A stretch of DNA of 39,290 nucleotides from Anaerolineae bacterium. GTDB taxonomy: Bacteria; Chloroflexota; Anaerolineae; Aggregatilineales; JAFGMM01. Below, piece after piece: positions 31,200 to 39,290 of the stretch. Location: assembly GCA_016927535.1 (NCBI GenBank), contig JAFGMM010000240.1, positions 1 through 39,290 on the forward strand, in the 5' to 3' direction. The notes beneath the pieces are model-generated. The model was not told the origin of the DNA. It made no database searches and worked only from the letters and a program-made list of their open reading frames with translations. The stretch's first letter is position 1. Each line of letters opens with the position of its first letter. The position numbers and the translations under genes are program-made.

Positions 31200-31841
31200 T
31201 CAATCCGGCGCCGGCGTACCGATAATGCCGTACTGGTTCAGGTTGGTAGTCGGCGTGTAGGCGGCGCCGTCCGGCATGGTGATGTCTTTTAGCTTTGTGC
31301 CGGTCAGCCGAGTTAGCGTCATGTTCGCGTTGGTAAAGTCAGCGCCGTCCAGCGTTGCGCTGCTCAGGTTGGCGTTGTTCAGATCGGCGCTGGTGAAATT
31401 CGTCTGGTTTATTTCGGCATTGCTGAAGTCGGCGCTGTTCAGGTTGGCGTTGAGGAACTGCACCAAGGTCAGCGACGCGCCGTTCAAATTGGCGCCGGTC
31501 AGGTCGGCGCCGACCAGGTTCGTCTGAGCGAGCACCGCGCCGCTCAGGTTCGCCCCGTTGAGGTCAGCGTCGCGCAGGTCGGTGCCGACCAGGCTGGAGG
31601 CGCGCAGATCGACCAGGCTCAAATCCAGGCCGCGCAAATCTACCCCGTTGAGGTTCACGCCGCGCAGCCGGACGCGCTGGCCGATCAACGTATTCGCCAG
31701 GATTTGGATAACCTCCTTGCGCGTCAGGTCCGGGCCGGCGGCCTGGGCATCGACCGGCGGCGTCATTTGACCGGGCAGCAGCAGGAGCACGATGAGCAGC
31801 AGGGCGGCGTCTCGCCAGTGCGCCGAGAGACGTTCTTTCAT
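31200..31841 (-). CDS. secreted pentapeptide-repeat protein
   Basis: 213 residues. Residues 1-33 form a signal peptide ending near VDAQA. Residues about 60-189 are pentapeptide repeats A(D/N)Lxx (ADLNGANLSG, GADLTGANLNGASL, NANLNSADFS, ADLNNANLSSATL), which fold as a right-handed quadrilateral beta-helix. GGAGGT lies 7 nt before the ATG. The role of secreted pentapeptide proteins is unknown; this one sits at the end of the TadE-type cluster and is likely a surface protein, though co-transcription with that cluster is uncertain because a 97-bp gap with an imperfect hairpin separates them. Confidence 0.85.
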   Translation of the reverse strand: MKERLSAHWRDAALLLIVLLLLPGQMTPPVDAQAAGPDLTRKEVIQILANTLIGQRVRLRGVNLNGVDLRGLDLSLVDLRASSLVGTDLRDADLNGANLSGAVLAQTNLVGADLTGANLNGASLTLVQFLNANLNSADFSNAEINQTNFTSADLNNANLSSATLDGADFTNANMTLTRLTGTKLKDITMPDGAAYTPTTNLNQYGIIGTPAPD

Positions 31842-31938: not shown

Positions 31939-33291
31939 TTACTGCACCAACAGCACGCGCGGCGGGTTAGGCGGGCAGTACTCCGGGCGATGGTTGATGC
32001 TGTTGTCGGAGCCGGACGCATCGATCTTGTTCGCCAGGATCATCCCGGCCAGGTCGCTGTTGCGCGCGCCGGACATATCGACGTTGCCGTTCGGCGCCAA
32101 GATCAGGCCGGCCCAGCCGTTGTAGCTGCCGCTGAGCTTGACCGCGCCGTTCGAGATATTGTCGCTCTCGGTGAAGATGAAGATGCCGCGTGCAATGGGC
32201 AACTGCTTGACGCCGCCGCTGATCTGCACATCGCCGCGTGCCACGAAGGTCGCGCGCCAGGGCGGGTCGTCTGCACCGAGATTATCCAGGTTGTTCAACT
32301 TGATCTCGCCTTCGACGACGTATAGCCCATCCTTGAGCGAGCCGTCCGGGTTCTTTACGTCGGCGGTGTTGAGGTCGCCGGTGACGTAGAAGCGCTGCGA
32401 GGCGTTGACCTCATTCCAGATGAAACCGCCGGGCTTGAAGTCCTCGAAGCGGTACGCGAAGTCGTCGGGCAGCGGGTAGTTGGGCACCTGGGTAACGCCG
32501 CGATCTGCCGCGTCGGGGTCGGGGCCGCCTTCGATCTTGTCGGGGTTGATCTGGCTGTCGCCGTTTTCGTCGTACTCGACCGGGCGTCCCGGCTCCAGGT
32601 AAATCCCCTGGCCGCCGCCGCCCAGGTGAATGCCGCCGTTGCTGTGAATGCCGCCGTTGGTGATCTTGGTGCCGGCGCCGATCACGGCGACCACGTCCTT
32701 GTCGCGTTCGGTGCTGATGCCGAAGACGGCGAAGTCGGTGCACCAGTAGCGGTAGTCCCAGATGGCGTAGGCGTGCGTCGTTACGTTGGTTTGGGCGATG
32801 CCGATCAGCGCGGCGAAAAAGGTCTGCTGCGGGAAGCTGGTCGCCGCGTGCAGCCCCTTGATCTTCTGGCCGCACGGGATGGTCGCCGTACCGCCGACCA
32901 CCTCCCAGGGCTGGCCGGTGGCAGGATTGACGAGATCGACCAGGTTGCCGTCGGCGTCTTCGGTCAGGTAGTAGACCTTCACATTGACGCCGTTGCTGGG
33001 GTCGGGCACTTCGTTGTTGCCGGCGTACAAGTACGCCTGGTCCAGGATCGGCTGCTCCGAGCCGCCGCAGCTGACGGTGGTGCCCACCAAGCTTTGTGAG
33101 ATCAAAGCGGTCGTCCCGGCGATGACGGCAGCGTCGGCGCCGTTCTGGGCGCGGCGCTGGTTCCAATAGAGCATCCCGCCGTCAACCGCCAGCGCCACGA
33201 CCCCCAGCAGACCGATTAGCATCAGCGAGATGATAACCAAAGACTGGCCTTCTTCACTGCGCCGTCTGCGACGTTCTTGTTTCGTACCCAT
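31939..33291 (-). CDS. TadG-like membrane-anchored surface protein
   Basis: 450 residues from the ATG at 33291, with GAGGTG 4 nt upstream; the longer frame start at 33321 lacks a ribosome-binding site. The N-terminus is TadG-type: SEEGQSLVIISLMLIGLLGVVALAVDGG then a membrane span and AQNGADAAVIAGTTAL (48-63). The long extracytoplasmic part is beta-rich, with NGGIHSNGGIHLGGGGQG, VEYDENGDSQI and a C-terminal glycine-rich stretch (NGNVDMSGA, SGSYNGWAGLILAPNG) typical of stacked beta-solenoid surface proteins. TadG/TadE proteins are linked to tight-adherence pili. It is the third gene of the TadE-type operon. Confidence 0.82.
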   Translation of the reverse strand: MGTKQERRRRRSEEGQSLVIISLMLIGLLGVVALAVDGGMLYWNQRRAQNGADAAVIAGTTALISQSLVGTTVSCGGSEQPILDQAYLYAGNNEVPDPSNGVNVKVYYLTEDADGNLVDLVNPATGQPWEVVGGTATIPCGQKIKGLHAATSFPQQTFFAALIGIAQTNVTTHAYAIWDYRYWCTDFAVFGISTERDKDVVAVIGAGTKITNGGIHSNGGIHLGGGGQGIYLEPGRPVEYDENGDSQINPDKIEGGPDPDAADRGVTQVPNYPLPDDFAYRFEDFKPGGFIWNEVNASQRFYVTGDLNTADVKNPDGSLKDGLYVVEGEIKLNNLDNLGADDPPWRATFVARGDVQISGGVKQLPIARGIFIFTESDNISNGAVKLSGSYNGWAGLILAPNGNVDMSGARNSDLAGMILANKIDASGSDNSINHRPEYCPPNPPRVLLVQ

Positions 33292-33353
33292 GCTGCACCT
33301 CTTTTTGTCGTAACCGTACATCGAACCCGTCGAGATTTTCTTGCTTGCTTCAC

Positions 33354-33393: not shown

Positions 33394-33858
33394 TTAATAT
33401 TGGTAGCCGGGCGGCGGCGGGCTGAGAACCTTCTGACGGGCAGTGGCCTGTACATGCGCTTCCTTGCCCCACAGCCACAAACCCAGCGGGGTCAGCGGCG
33501 AGAAGGTCGTCTCGACATCGACGCGCAAGACCGCATCGGCGGTGACGACGCCATCGCCTTCCACCTCGACCGTAATCACCGAGTTCTTCGCGCTCAGGTC
33601 GATGATGGGCTTGCTCTCCTCGCGCACCCGCCCGGCTACGCTCTCGGTGCCCTGGCAGATCGTCGCTGCGTGGTCGGTGGTCAGGCAGGCCGGGTGCGTA
33701 GCGCCGTAGAGCGCGCCTTCGGCGGCGGCGTTCTCGACTGCGATGAGGATGAGCAGCGCGCGCCCGACTTCGAAGACACCGCCCAGGATGACGATCAGGA
33801 TCGGCAACACGAGCGCGGTTTCTAACAATGCCTGTCCAAGCTGCTTTTGCTTTTTCAT
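33394..33858 (-). CDS. TadE-like pseudopilin
   Basis: 154 residues with the TadE pattern: QALLETALVLPILIVILGGV near residues 9-28, a single N-terminal membrane span with the conserved Glu at its start, then ENAAAEGALYGAT. The rest is a small extracytoplasmic domain. AGGAGAG lies 7 nt before the ATG. It follows the TadE-SdrB gene by 21 bp on the minus strand. Confidence 0.88.
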   Translation of the reverse strand: MKKQKQLGQALLETALVLPILIVILGGVFEVGRALLILIAVENAAAEGALYGATHPACLTTDHAATICQGTESVAGRVREESKPIIDLSAKNSVITVEVEGDGVVTADAVLRVDVETTFSPLTPLGLWLWGKEAHVQATARQKVLSPPPPGYQY

Positions 33859-33879: not shown

Positions 33880-35427
33880 TTACGAACCCAGCCCAAGGCC
33901 GACCGACAGATCATAGGTCGCCTGGTTATTAGAGATGGTGAAGGTATCTTGTCCGGGCAGGATGCTGTAGGGTGCGAAGTGAACCGCCACCTGGTACGCG
34001 CCCGCCGGTAGATCGCTGAGGCTAAAGCGCCCGTTGCTGTCGGTGGTCGCGCTGAAGGATTGTGTGCTGCCGTCCGGGCCGGTCCAGGTCAGGTCTACTG
34101 CTGTGCCGGCCGGTACGCCGGGGTCCTTCGTCGCATTCTGATAATTGCCGTCGGCGCCGCCGTCCAGCCAGACCAGCGCGCTGAGCGTGGTGATCTGCGA
34201 GATGGTCTCGGTGCTGGTCATGATCGAGTCGCTCGCGGCCATCGGCGCGCTGGCGAGCGCCGACCCGTCTCCTAACCCTACACTGTAGGTGTGGGTTTGG
34301 CCGCCGGGTAGATGAAGTTCGAGCGGGCTGTTGCCGGTCGTCGCCGTGCCGCTGACCGTCACACGGTACAGACCCGCGCCCAGGTTCGAGAAGCTGAAGC
34401 TGCCCTGGTTGTCGGTCCGCCGGTAGTCGGCCTGGTCGTCGCCGGTGTCCAGCGCGCCGTCTGCGCCCGCGTAGACCATCGTCACGTAGACACTGCTGTA
34501 GGATTTGTCGGTCGAGGTTTGCTGAATGCCGTCGCTGTTGACATCCTGCCACACCGTGCCGTTGATCGCGCTAACGAGAGCCTCGGTGCCGCCGCCGCAT
34601 GAAACCGACGAGAAATCAGAGGGCGGGCCGGCCAGTTCGTTCGGGTTTGCGCCGGTTACGGCCACCAGGTAATACATCGCCACGCCGTCGCTCTGCGGGA
34701 TGGTGGCGCAGCTTGTGCATTGACCCGCCCACGCTTCGGTGGGCGAGAGAACCTTTACTACCGTATTGGTCAGCGCCTCGCGGATCTCGGCGCGGCTGCC
34801 CACGCTCAGCGGCGTCCAACTGAAGCTCACCGGCGAGTTGAGGCCGCCGGCATCGGTCACGTCGCAGCGGACGCGCGCTTCGAAGCCCTGCGCAGTTTCG
34901 GGCTGCGCCGGCCACTGGTCGGTGTAGGGCGTGCCCTCGCTGACGATGGTGCGGCGTGATGTGTGGCTGAGGGTGAGCGCAAACAGGTTGGTGAAGTAGG
35001 GCGTGATCGACCGGATCTGGCCCTGGATGCTCACGACCAACACGTCGCCGTTGTTCACATCCCACCAGGTCAAATCGTCTTCGCAGGAGATCGGCCGGCC
35101 CGTGCTCGGGTTCAGCAAGATGTTCCCGGCGGCGTCTTCATAATGGATGCTGATCGTTGCGTCTTGCAGGTTGTAGACGCCGGGCATACTGTGCGCCGTC
35201 TGGCGCAGCCCTTCGCAGTCGAGATAGCGCAGATTGTTCGCCTCAAGCCCAACCGTGATGCCATAGCGCACCGTCTGCCGGGCTGCGTCGATCAACTGGG
35301 AATAGATGAACAGCGCACGCGCCAGGTCGATGATCCCGAAGACGAACAAGAGCAGAATGGGAAGGGTCAGTGCAAATTCGACCAGAGCTTGACCTTGTGT
35401 TTTGGGGGTTCGGGTTGTGGTTTTCAT
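33880..35427 (-). CDS. TadE-like protein fused to SdrD-B-like surface domains
   Basis: 515 residues from the ATG at 35427 (GAGGT 7 nt upstream); the much longer open frame to 35748 is non-coding leader. Residues 10-56 are TadE-like (GQALVEFALTLPILLLFVF, then DAARQTVRYG). Residues about 175-275 look fibronectin-like. Two SdrD-B/Cna-B-like domains follow at about 288-385 and 416-513, each with a VWxDxNxDG start and RTDNQGSFSFSNLGAGLYRV or TTDSNGRFSLSDLPAGAYQV. Joining a TadE membrane module to SdrB domains is unusual and suggests an exposed structural role. It begins the TadE-SdrB - TadE - TadG unit. Confidence 0.88.
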   Translation of the reverse strand: MKTTTRTPKTQGQALVEFALTLPILLLFVFGIIDLARALFIYSQLIDAARQTVRYGITVGLEANNLRYLDCEGLRQTAHSMPGVYNLQDATISIHYEDAAGNILLNPSTGRPISCEDDLTWWDVNNGDVLVVSIQGQIRSITPYFTNLFALTLSHTSRRTIVSEGTPYTDQWPAQPETAQGFEARVRCDVTDAGGLNSPVSFSWTPLSVGSRAEIREALTNTVVKVLSPTEAWAGQCTSCATIPQSDGVAMYYLVAVTGANPNELAGPPSDFSSVSCGGGTEALVSAINGTVWQDVNSDGIQQTSTDKSYSSVYVTMVYAGADGALDTGDDQADYRRTDNQGSFSFSNLGAGLYRVTVSGTATTGNSPLELHLPGGQTHTYSVGLGDGSALASAPMAASDSIMTSTETISQITTLSALVWLDGGADGNYQNATKDPGVPAGTAVDLTWTGPDGSTQSFSATTDSNGRFSLSDLPAGAYQVAVHFAPYSILPGQDTFTISNNQATYDLSVGLGLGS

Positions 35428-35502: not shown

Positions 35503-35531
35503 TATATAGGATAAAGCGTATTCGCGTTCGA
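35503..35531 (-). promoter_or_regulatory. candidate promoter of the TadE-SdrB operon
   Basis: Minus strand TCGAAC (35531-35526), a 17-nt spacer, TATATA (35508-35503). The -35 is weak, as expected of an activator-dependent promoter. The leader would be about 70 nt. Confidence 0.4.
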
Positions 35532-35568
35532 TTGATCCATCCGGCAGTGGATTTTGAGCCGAACAAAA

Positions 35569-35620
35569 GGGGGATTTTTCTCTCCACCATCTGGGGGATA
35601 GAAAATTCATACCACGGGGG
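35569..35620. promoter_or_regulatory. GGGGGA-box element upstream of the TadE operon
   Basis: GGGGGA boxes start at 35569, 35593 and 35616 (24- and 23-nt steps). The first two enclose CTCTCCACCAT. A 32-bp stretch (35569-35600) matches the element at 37409-37440 at 26 of 32 positions. Confidence 0.7.
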
Positions 35621-35756
35621 AGCGAGTTGAAAAGATATGTTTGGGAGAGGTTAGGGAAACGTAAAAACGGCGCATGAGACGGCGGCGCGCCTTCGTTCGC
35701 TCGGAAACGGCAAAGCTTGTCGCCGGTAACCTGGGAGAGCCGGCCCACAACGGTTA

Positions 35757-35787
35757 TAAAAAATCCCCACAGGCGAACCTGTGGGGA
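35757..35787 (-). terminator. intrinsic terminator of the two-TM gene
   Basis: TCCCCACAGG and CCTGTGGGGA form a perfect 10-bp stem with a 4-nt loop, followed on the minus strand by TTTTTT. It lies 32 bp past the stop at 35819. This separates the upstream Flp-like unit from the TadE unit. Confidence 0.9.
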
Positions 35788-35818
35788 CCGCTGAGAGGAC
35801 GGTGAAGAAGTTCAAGTT

Positions 35819-36574
35819 CTAGTAGGGAAAATCCTGGACAAACTGGTTGACGATAGCCATTGAAGTACCCGATACGGTGTAGAGCCAGGGGCCATGCGTC
35901 CAGCTCAGCGAGTTCACGGTTCCGACCCGGTAGTAGATGTAGCTAACATCACCCAGGCCGATGGCGAAGTTGCCGACGCTGCCTTTCTTGCTGGCGTACT
36001 CTCGAAGTTTGCGCATCACGAAAAGCGCCTCGTTTTCCGAGACCATCTCCTCTGCGCTGACCGATGCCGCCTCGCCGGTGGCGAGTGTATAGGTGCTGGC
36101 GATGCTGCCGTTGCTTGCCACGCCGAGCTTTGCCAGGACTTTGCTCTGCGCATCCGTCGAGACATCGCGCACGAAGTCGCCGACGTTCATGGGCAGCAGA
36201 CCGTAAGTGCTGCCGGGGCTGGCGACCAAGCGGCTGTCCAGGTTATAGGGAGCGGCTATGGCGCTCATGTAATCGGTGGCGTTGAGGGAGCGCACCAGCC
36301 CGCCGACGAGCACGCTCACCGTAAACACCAGGACGAACACCGCGCCGGCCATCAGAACCAGAAATGCCAGCTTCTTTTTCTCGGTATACGCGACCTCTTT
36401 GCCGACGACCCGGGAAGCGCGCGCAACATAATAGACTGGGTATGCGATCAGCATCAACATGACGAGCCAGGCGATTTCCCAGTTAGAGGCTTGCGGCTCG
36501 CCGACGACAAGCATCGTGCTTTCGGTTGGGCGCTTACCGCCATTTGTGTTCACCAACGTACCCTGTGCGTTCAT
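35819..36574 (-). CDS. two-span membrane protein of the Flp-like operon
   Basis: 251 residues from the ATG at 36574, with GAAGGG 9 nt upstream; longer starts at 36598 and 36583 would include or touch that site. Two membrane spans (about 32-51 and 68-94) are followed by about 155 extracytoplasmic residues. That part contains TDAQSKVLAKLGVASNGS, SENEALFVMRKLREYASKKG and WTHGPWLYTVSGTS. No named domain is recognised. It lies 74 bp after the Flp-like gene and ends at a strong terminator, so the two form one unit. Confidence 0.8.
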   Translation of the reverse strand: MNAQGTLVNTNGGKRPTESTMLVVGEPQASNWEIAWLVMLMLIAYPVYYVARASRVVGKEVAYTEKKKLAFLVLMAGAVFVLVFTVSVLVGGLVRSLNATDYMSAIAAPYNLDSRLVASPGSTYGLLPMNVGDFVRDVSTDAQSKVLAKLGVASNGSIASTYTLATGEAASVSAEEMVSENEALFVMRKLREYASKKGSVGNFAIGLGDVSYIYYRVGTVNSLSWTHGPWLYTVSGTSMAIVNQFVQDFPY

Positions 36575-36648
36575 CTTAATCATCCCTTCTTTCAACACCC
36601 TTATGTTTCACTTCACACTTTGCCGTTGTTCCCAGTTGAGATGAACGT

Positions 36649-37305
36649 TTACTCTTCGCATTCGTCGGGGTTTTCGCAGCCCGGCGTCTGGATCGTACCG
36701 CTGTTGACCCGCTTGGCCGCCTTGGTCACGACACTGCCGGCTACCTTTTCGAGGTTCCCTTTCAGCGTGACGAAAACCAGGCGGGTTTCATAATCACTAT
36801 AGCCTCGGTCAAACTTGACCCCACGCGCCCCGGTCTTTGGATCGGGATCGACGAATTCGTATGCTTCGGAAGCCGACACGACCGACGAAGCGGTCAGGCA
36901 GCCCGGCAACTCCAGCACCCAATGGCTGATCGCCGGTCCCGGCCCGGTCGCTTGCGAGGTCACCGAATAGCCGACCGTGGTCGTATCACTCGACTCGTTG
37001 TACACCCAGGTCATCAACTCAAAACGATGGATATCGGATGTCGCCGTGACCGGATACGTGGCTTCCTCTTCGGGGACGCAGACCATCGCGGCTTCGGGCG
37101 TCTGCGCGCCGAAGACCGCATCGACAATCGTCTGGTAGGTCTCGCCGAGCCACGGCGACAGCATCACACCCAACGCAGCGAACAACAGCCCGGTCGCGCC
37201 GCCGATAACCGGCCAGTACTCCGAGACCGCCTGGCCGCGCTGCATCCGCCGCGCTTGGGGGCCGCCGACGAAAATCTTGAACTTCAACCATATTCTCTCA
37301 AACAT
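36649..37305 (-). CDS. Flp/prepilin-like protein with a C-terminal extension
   Basis: 218 residues. The N-terminus carries a prepilin-type signature: after a positively charged leader, G24 is followed by QAVSEYWPVIGGATGLLFAAL, with Glu29 at +5 from the presumed cut and Tyr next to it, as in Flp pilins. The hydrophobic stretch (31-49) is the pilin-like helix. Unlike short Flp pilins it has about 160 extra residues with a possible disulfide pair (VCVPEEEATYP, PGCLTASSV) and an acidic C-terminus ending in CENPDECEE. GGAGGA lies about 8 nt before the ATG. It opens the operon beside the two-component system and is probably a minor pilin-like surface protein. Confidence 0.78.
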   Translation of the reverse strand: MFERIWLKFKIFVGGPQARRMQRGQAVSEYWPVIGGATGLLFAALGVMLSPWLGETYQTIVDAVFGAQTPEAAMVCVPEEEATYPVTATSDIHRFELMTWVYNESSDTTTVGYSVTSQATGPGPAISHWVLELPGCLTASSVVSASEAYEFVDPDPKTGARGVKFDRGYSDYETRLVFVTLKGNLEKVAGSVVTKAAKRVNSGTIQTPGCENPDECEE

Positions 37306-37333
37306 TTTATCAATCCTCCACCAAGAAGCCAGA

Positions 37334-37361
37334 CCTATAAGTCCGCGTGGCTTTGATTCAA
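37334..37361 (-). promoter_or_regulatory. candidate promoter of the Flp-like operon
   Basis: Minus strand TTGAAT (37361-37356), a 16-nt spacer, TATAGG (37339-37334). The leader would be about 22 nt and includes the ribosome-binding site. Confidence 0.45.
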
Positions 37362-37408
37362 TCCACTTTCATTAACCTATAATTGAACGAAGCTGTAAAC
37401 GAGCAGGT

Positions 37409-37440
37409 GGGGGAACTTTTTATCCACCAGATGGGGGATA
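37409..37440. promoter_or_regulatory. GGGGGA-box element upstream of the Flp-like operon
   Basis: GGGGGA boxes start at 37409 and 37433 (24-nt step) around TATCCACCAG. It lies about 48 bp upstream of the candidate -35 and 9 bp after the response-regulator terminator stem. It matches the TadE-operon element (35569-35600) at 26 of 32 positions. Confidence 0.7.
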
Positions 37441-37445
37441 TCGAA

Positions 37446-37473
37446 GGGCTGCCGGGCGCGCACCCGGCAGCCC
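37446..37473 (-). terminator. terminator hairpin after the response regulator
   Basis: GGGCTGCCGGG (37446-37456) and CCCGGCAGCCC (37463-37473) form a perfect 11-bp stem with a 6-nt loop, 2 nt past the stop codon. No strong T-tract follows, but the stem is very stable. Confidence 0.7.
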
Positions 37474-37475
37474 TG

Positions 37476-38117
37476 TCAATCAAGCAGATTGTGTTGCAGC
37501 GCCAGCGCGACCGCCTCGACACGGCTGGCGACGCCGAGCTTCGAGAAAATGTTGCTCACGTGGGTCTTCACGGTCGAGCGCCCGATCATCAGCCGGTCGG
37601 CGATCTCGGCATTGTTCAACCCCTCGACCAGCAGGACCAATACCTCACGCTCGCGCGGGGTCAGGTCATCGCCGGGCGCGGGCGGCTCGGTCGCCGCCTG
37701 GATCAGGGCTTGGGTCGCTTCGGGGGCCAGCGTGGGCCGGCCGGCATAGGCCGCACGGATCGCGACCGCGAGTTCGTCCGCCGAGATGTTCTTCAGCAAA
37801 TAGCTGATCGCCCCGGCCTGGAGCGCCTCCTGCACCAGTTCGCCCTCTTTGAAGCTGGTCAGGGCGATCACCTGGACCGTCGGCCAGCGCTTGCGGATCG
37901 CGCGGGTGGCCTCGACGCCGTTCATCCCCGGCATCATCATATCCATCAGCACCACGTCCGGGGCCAACCGTTCGCACATGAGCAGCGCCTCCTCGCCGCC
38001 GGCCGCCTCGCCGACCAGTTCCAGGTCATCCTGAACCCGGAGGAAGAATCCCAATCCCTTACGTACCATCGCATGGTCGTCTACGATCATCACACGGATG
38101 GTTTTTGTTTCGCTCAT
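37476..38117 (-). CDS. NarL/LuxR-family response regulator
   Basis: 213 residues. The receiver domain (about 7-125) has the acidic pair D13-D14, the phospho-acceptor D59 ([13 protein letters not shown]), T87 and K109. The LuxR-type helix-turn-helix spans about 149-210: [22 protein letters not shown] and [17 protein letters not shown]. It starts 4 bp after the sensor kinase stop and is therefore co-transcribed with it. It is the best candidate to bind the GGGGGA elements upstream of the pilin-like operons; that is inference from position only. Confidence 0.95.
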
Positions 38118-38121
38118 CGCA

Positions 38122-39290
38122 CTACCGCCTTTCCCAGGTCACCCGGATTTGCGCCCCCTGGCCGGGCCGGCTGGCCGCTTCAAAGGCCGCGCCAACTTTC
38201 TCGGCGCGCTCTTGCATGATGCTCAAGCCGAAATGCCCGGCGGGGATATCGTCCGGGTCGAAACCACGGCCATTATCCATAATACTCAAAGTGACGGCGC
38301 TGTCACATTCGCACAGCGCGACCGTCACCCGGTCGGCGCCGGCGTGGCGGGCGACGTTGTTCAGCGCCTCCTGCGCGATGCGATATAGGGCGATTCGCAC
38401 GTCCACCGGCAAGGGGTGCCGGGCCTCAATCGTCAAATTGATGTCAACGCCGGTGCGCCCCGCGACCGACTCGGCAAGCTGGCGCAGCATGTCGCTCAGA
38501 TCGGCCCGCTCCAGGGCGTGCGGGCGCATCTCCAGCAGCAGCGCGCGCATCTCGGCCAGGGCGCCCCGCGTCAGCCGCCGCAGATCCACGAGACTTTCCC
38601 GCCCCATTTCGGCATCGCGCTCCCAGAGGACCGGCAGCACGTCGGCGATCAGGCTGGCCGAAAAGAGCATCTGGCTCACCGCGTCGTGGAGTTCATTCGC
38701 CAGCCGACCGCGCTCTTCCATCACCGACAGGTACTTCGCCTCGTTATGCAGCCGGGCGTTCTCTAAGGCAATGGCGGCGTGATCGGCGAAGGCGCGGAGC
38801 CGCGTGCCGTGTTCGGGGGTGAAGAATCCGGGTATGCTGCTATCCAGGTTGATAAAGCCGATCACTTTTGCTCCCAAGATAATTGGGCTGCCGGCATACG
38901 AGCGCACCCAGCGCGCCTCAGGGATATCCAGCCAGGATTCGTCCGCGTGTGTGTCCGGGATAACGACCGGCCAGCCGGTCGCCAACATCTGCCGCTGGTT
39001 AGGTGTCTCCTCGATCACGTAGCGGCGCGCCAGCACCGCCGTCTCGGAAGTATACTCGGCGTATCCCCGGCAGTAAACCAGGCGCGCGACCCCAGGGTCT
39101 TCGATCAACATGACGTTGGCGGCGTCGTGCGGCACCACAAAGCCGACGTTGGCAAGAATACCCTCAAGCACCTCGTCCAGGTCCAGCGTGCTGGTGAGCG
39201 CGGCGGTCACTTCGCTGAGCGCCTCGGCGAGCACGCGCAGTTTGTGCTCGGCGGCCTCGGCGCGTGCGCGCTCGGTGATCTCGTTTCTAA
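38122..39290 (-). CDS. NarL-type sensor histidine kinase, PAS(?)-GAF-HisKA_3 (5' end outside window)
   Basis: The reading frame is open to the right edge, so the gene is partial. The first visible residues ([16 protein letters not shown]) match the classic end of a PAS domain, so a PAS likely lies outside the window. A GTG at 39234 is not needed as the start. A GAF domain follows ([16 protein letters not shown] to [12 protein letters not shown]), then HisKA_3 ([20 protein letters not shown]) with the phospho-histidine, and a HATPase ([34 protein letters not shown]). It is a soluble kinase paired with the NarL-type regulator downstream. Confidence 0.94.

Follow-up and report, generated by a model that had tools for sequence, protein, structure and literature searches.

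Tandem palindromes as predicted operators of a NarL-type response regulator beside pilin-like operons in an Anaerolineae genome

Genes and elements of the locus

The window, by which we mean the whole stretch of DNA that was analysed, covers 39,290 nucleotides of one contig from an Anaerolineae bacterium. Toward one end it encodes a two-component system next to two operons for pilin-like proteins, all on the minus strand:

38122..39290, minus strand: histidine kinase with GAF and HisKA_3 domains (Pfam), running past the window edge
37476..38117, minus strand: NarL/LiaR-type response regulator of 213 aa (Response_reg and GerE domains), the proposed binder, with T185 as specificity residue from covariation
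36649..37305, minus strand: Flp-like membrane protein of 218 aa (open reading frame), first gene of operon 1
35819..36598, minus strand: membrane protein of 259 aa (open reading frame), second gene of operon 1
33880..35427, minus strand: protein with TadE, SdrD_B and carboxypeptidase-regulatory-like domains (Pfam), first gene of operon 2
33394..33858, minus strand: TadE protein (Pfam)
31939..33321, minus strand: TadE/G-like (Tad) protein (Pfam)

The Flp-like protein has no Pfam or NCBIfam match above cut-off and the 259-aa membrane protein no Pfam match, and the Flp/Tad components identified near the elements are only minor pilins of the TadE/TadG type. Among the named NCBIfam equivalogs, the regulator scores best with MadR (168 of 300 bits) and reaches 166 of 250 with NarL, passing no cut-off; it is a member of the NarL superfamily distinct from these named equivalogs. 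A strong terminator-like hairpin, CCCCACAGG-cgaa-CCTGTGGGG, followed by a minus-strand T run, lies at 35757-35786, 3′ of the 259-aa gene and between both operons, and a pentapeptide-repeat protein with an apparent signal peptide is encoded downstream of the Tad genes (31200-31841).

An earlier note on this DNA had described two near-identical elements, each a pair of GGGGGA boxes, and a third box near the TadE-SdrB operon. The positions are as it claimed: GGGGGA-N18-GGGGGA occurs at 35569-35598 and at 37409-37438, with 26 of 32 bases identical between both, and the third GGGGGA is found at 35616-35621, 23 nt beyond the 35.6-kb pair. These two matches in the window compare with 0.00 expected from 100 dinucleotide shuffles. 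The match is real, but on the transcribed (minus) strand the unit turns out to be an imperfect palindrome of 16 bp, TCCCCCA-NN-TGGNGGA, instead of paired G boxes; weaker, degenerate copies are spaced 23-24 bp from the strong site. The element at 37438 has such a weaker second copy at +24, and the 35.6-kb site has four copies in register (offsets -23, 0, +24 and +47), the only offsets in the region of 35598 at which a 16-mer matches at least 8 of the 13 defined positions. The features of the two promoters are as follows:

37445..37474, minus strand: hairpin between the regulator stop codon and site 1 (inverted repeat, 93% complementary), possibly a terminator
37423..37438, minus strand: strong palindromic site 1 of the Flp-like operon promoter, TCCCCCATCTGGTGGA, 13/13 of the consensus
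37399..37414, minus strand: weak site 2 at +24, TCCCCCACCTGCTCGT, 10/13 of the consensus and the region's next best 16-mer
37371..37376, minus strand: presumed -10 box GTTAAT at +62, the relatives' fixed position; weak match here
35606..35621, minus strand: extra upstream site at -23, TCCCCCGTGGTATGAA, which holds the third box of the earlier note; 8/13, in register
35583..35598, minus strand: strong palindromic site of the TadE-SdrB promoter, TCCCCCAGATGGTGGA, 13/13 of the consensus
35559..35574, minus strand: site at +24 of the TadE-SdrB promoter, TCCCCCTTTTGTTCGG, 9/13, in register
35536..35551, minus strand: site at +47 of the TadE-SdrB promoter, TCCACTGCCGGATGGA, 8/13, in register
35508..35513, minus strand: presumed -10 box TATCCT, placed by sequence and by the relatives' fixed spacing

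Site 1 begins 41 bp past the stop codon of the regulator and matches the own-genome model with an E value of 5e-6, the site itself being in the training set. At the TadE-SdrB promoter, the +47 copy contains the GGATG of the relatives' site 2 and is probably the promoter-proximal site. TATCCT starts 38 nt from the start of this copy, and it is because of this spacing, the same as in relatives, that the -10 box was assigned there. The -10 boxes of both promoters are weak, and transcript starts are predicted at about 37364 and 35501.

Genome-wide numbers come from pattern and profile searches. In the window's own genome (5.1 Mb), GGGGGA-N18-GGGGGA has three matches and the reversed control pattern none, and a search with the inner core, allowing three mismatches, returned the same three. 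Besides the Flp-like and TadE-SdrB operons, only a secreted TSP3/DUF5666 protein of 316 aa (contig C300) is preceded by a copy, and all three sites are upstream of their genes and co-oriented with them. They score 32-38 in the profile, lower than most of the relatives' sites, and were part of its training. A second pair of TadE genes in this genome (contig C322, 12332-15564; L235, L237) is without the operator. Single palindromes with one mismatch on contigs C93 and C274 were rejected as lying inside coding sequence.

The tandem site in relatives and its promoter geometry

With one mismatch allowed, the tandem pattern is present in 72 of 396 genomes of the class, and the reversed control gives mostly 0-1 matches per genome. 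Several families of the class share the tandem site, and its copies are often clustered; in three families (f34, f42 and f11) the pattern is multi-copy per genome. Some single-copy matches in other families may be due to chance or coding sequence, and matches with coding-like spacer sequences, in f17, f45 and others, were left out of the analysis. The 56 sites collected, 53 of them outside the own genome, all stack in one register, and an alignment of 43 collected sites and later finds is gapless, with site 1 at 0 and site 2 at +24. In a profile scan over 675 kb, true sites score 36-65 bits as against a maximum of 6.4 for the reversed sequence; one match of 16.1 just past a regulator (L014) was not counted as a site. 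One relative (G053; L129-L131) has about a dozen dispersed copies of TCCCCCATGAGGTGGA, and the three inspected share longer flanks, TCCCCCATGAGGTGGAAGGATGCC; these copies are an unrelated repeat resembling the palindrome.

Downstream of the tandem site, a TAnnnT -10 box lies at +62 from the palindrome start in 44 of the relatives' 53 sites, and no other position has more than nine. The promoters show no -35 consensus 15-19 bp from this box, and the geometry proposed earlier, with elements 38 and 48 bp from -35 candidates, was not reproduced. About ten receiver genes downstream of sites, encoding proteins of the MTRVYIADA type, start exactly at +74. Leaderless bacterial genes are recognisable by a TA-box 12 bp ahead of the start codon (PMC3160421), which together with these starts places the transcript start at about +74 and the centres of the two sites at about -66 and -42.

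Two side observations concern these sites. The leaderless starts belong to a family of stand-alone receivers of about 122 aa (MTRV[YF][IL]AD...), which adjoin CsbD and GlsB/YmgE genes in several genomes (L161:8654, L162:4494, L165:6137, L168:8135, L171:6023, L174:3831, L175:1924, L178:6686, L184:4210, L199:3738). In family f34, site 2 lies within a long inverted repeat, CTCCCCANCC-GATGGAT-GGNTGGGGAG, from +24 to +54, the pairing of which is kept despite base changes (L160, L161, L162, L165, L167, L168, L178 and others) and which is absent in the window. An RNA element was considered and rejected, as only some families have this repeat, which is located 5′ of the presumed start.

Association with the adjacent regulator and competing explanations

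In 20 genomes we identified orthologs of the window regulator, 60-69% identical to it. Of 23 orthologs, 13 have a co-oriented site starting 14-106 bp past the stop codon (limit of 200 bp), but of 76 paralogs only one has a site. Whether a site is present coincides with the residue at one position of the recognition helix, the equivalent, as we take it, of a residue that contacts DNA bases in E. coli NarL: Thr or Ser occupies it in 18/18 site-bearing and 0/36 site-less orthologs (Fisher p 1e-14, a value that overstates the independent evidence, since site and residue change, together, only about three times on the tree of these 54 regulators). Three changes are too few for significance in a tree-corrected test, and the association is complete but phylogenetically shallow. 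The site-bearing helices read ST[VI]K[TS]H, with one SFTIKSH variant obeying the same rule, and the site-less orthologs carry Phe, Tyr, Asn, His or Ile at this position. Many orthologs are without such a site, including the nearest relative compared, G001 of the same family, which has Asn; its regulator may be followed by a diverged promoter that has TATAGT at +62.

In orthologs that carry Phe or Tyr at this position, different palindromes lie immediately 3′ of the regulator gene, namely CTGGCCACCTGGCCAG, CCTGGTCAGTTGACCAGG and CTGGTCACTTGACCAAG (L022, L024, L034-L036, L046), with TGGTCANNTGACCA-type palindromes at L022, L024 and L046. These suggest that the DNA code drifts with the recognition helix.

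The explanation we favour, with a probability of roughly 0.88, is that the elements are tandem operators of the regulator encoded at 37476-38117, which would activate the Flp-like operon, the TadE-SdrB operon and one secreted protein. The sites and their spacing, the fixed -10 box of the relatives, the regulator linkage and the covariation of the recognition helix can be read from the genomes, and the scheme built on them predicts binding, its dependence on phosphorylation, the activating sign and a surface or stress role. The GAF-HisKA_3 kinase (38122-39290) would phosphorylate the regulator, which would then dimerise; one dimer would occupy the strong palindrome TCCCCCA-NN-TGGNGGA and a second the degenerate copy 24 bp closer to the gene. 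Bound with its centres near -66 and -42, the regulator would recruit RNA polymerase to a promoter that has a -10 but no -35 box, and the two operons and the secreted protein would be switched on as a cell-surface regulon. The proposal of the earlier note that the site belongs to the adjacent NarL-type regulator as an activator site finds strong support in ortholog linkage, recognition-helix covariation, the fixed -10 and the LiaR/VraR skeleton discussed below.

The elements might instead be sites of another DNA-binding protein co-inherited with the two-component locus, with the adjacent regulator binding elsewhere. Neighbourhood is no proof, each genome has further NarL paralogs, and in G053 one site (L008) follows a different NarL regulator, only 39% identical. 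However, the motif tracks the recognition helix of the regulator beyond mere location (18/18 against 0/36) and matches the known skeleton of its family, and an unsystematic look noticed no other DNA-binding gene as a constant neighbour, so that we regard this explanation as unlikely. We give slightly less credence still to the site serving in repression, or as a dual terminator/promoter hairpin, instead of in activation. Sites often lie 3′ of the regulator gene, where a terminator would be, and the f34 repeat, CTCCCC...GGGGAG, keeps its pairing around site 2, but this repeat is absent from the sites of both the window and f42; moreover, for a repressor one would expect binding over the -10 box or downstream of it, whereas centres at -42 and -66 and the absent -35 box suit activation.

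It is scarcely credible that the elements are G-runs arisen by chance, or copies of a dispersed repeat or mobile element that came to lie upstream of genes, even though copies cluster in few loci in some genomes and one relative has the unrelated dispersed repeat with a similar core: what is conserved across families is only the sites and the -10 box, not the flanks, and the three copies of the own genome stand against none in shuffles and the reversed control.

Predicted regulon and comparison with known systems

In relatives, the genes associated with the tandem operator encode PAS kinases, receivers, CsbD, Transgly_assoc (GlsB/YmgE), CBS, KaiC, ice-binding and DUF5670 proteins. They are mostly sensor and stress genes, and the element does not hold as a general mark of pilin operons. 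In the 20 genomes, 12 of 25 CsbD genes have a site within 1 kb upstream, and for 17 of 56 Transgly_assoc genes a co-oriented site lies no more than 1.5 kb upstream; at a density of roughly ten sites per genome, the expectation is well under one. These counts above expectation make a general-stress role plausible for the relatives, whose targets suggest a sensory/stress regulon made up, as we read it, of CsbD, GlsB/YmgE, CBS, KaiC, PAS kinases and the leaderless receiver genes. No sigma-B/F/G protein above the curated NCBIfam cut-off is present in the 20 genomes. The own genome of the window is without CsbD, and no homologs of the window's pilin-like proteins were found near other regulator orthologs in the loci examined; the lineage of the window seems to use the operator for surface genes. 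A broader picture, to which we would give a little less than even odds, is that in several Anaerolineae families a general stress and sensory response depends on the kinase/regulator pair with its tandem operator, acting from an ordinary sigma-70-type promoter in the role that sigma-B or PhyR-EcfG have elsewhere, that changes at one recognition-helix residue make the DNA code drift, and that the lineage of the window has re-aimed the switch at surface pilins.

The recurrence of this probable switch across many Chloroflexota genomes points to a previously undescribed gene-control network. Anaerolineae are an abundant, mostly uncultured class, on whose transcription control the searched literature held little, and no Chloroflexota regulon or motif of this kind was found in the openly accessible literature. 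Here the regulator, its DNA code, the promoter geometry and the predicted targets can be read together from genomes. They provide a single-residue hypothesis for a specificity switch and testable targets for the control of surface pili and, in the relatives, of stress and circadian-type genes.

Parts of the arrangement resemble known systems. CsbD belongs to the sigma-B regulon of Bacillus, and the targets in relatives likewise include CsbD and other small stress-type proteins; control here would be by a response-regulator operator instead. In P. aeruginosa, the flp-rcp-tad locus itself encodes PprB, a NarL/LuxR-family regulator that acts directly on Flp/Tad pilus genes as their activator (PMC3510237), and PprA-PprB is induced under starvation stress (PMC6821963). 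The window also has a NarL-family regulator encoded beside pilin-like and tad genes (two TadE and Tad domains downstream). However, the published recognition sequence of PprB differs (putative GGCTAATAC), only pilin-like and TadE/G genes adjoin the regulator here, and the targets of relatives are mostly sensors and stress proteins.

A parallel in DNA recognition is with LiaR/VraR, the envelope-stress regulators of Firmicutes; the window regulator is about 45% identical to Bacillus homologs. The skeleton of LiaR/VraR sites is T(N4)C(N4)G(N4)A; a strong primary site is paired with a weaker secondary one, which serves the phosphorylated form, and in LiaR the primary site extends from -76 to -52 (PMC7191749). 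All three own-genome sites and the 43-site consensus fit this skeleton, in register, as TCCCC C ANNT G GNGG A, a 13/13 site 1 is accompanied by 8-10/13 copies at 23-24 bp (fixed at +24 in relatives), and a NarL-family regulator adjoins a HisKA_3 kinase here too (Pfam). The half site here is TCCCCCA, not the LiaR sequence, and the secondary site overlies the -35 region at a fixed distance of 24 bp downstream. LiaF was not seen, the kinase has a GAF domain, and the phylum and the targets are other than those of LiaR/VraR.
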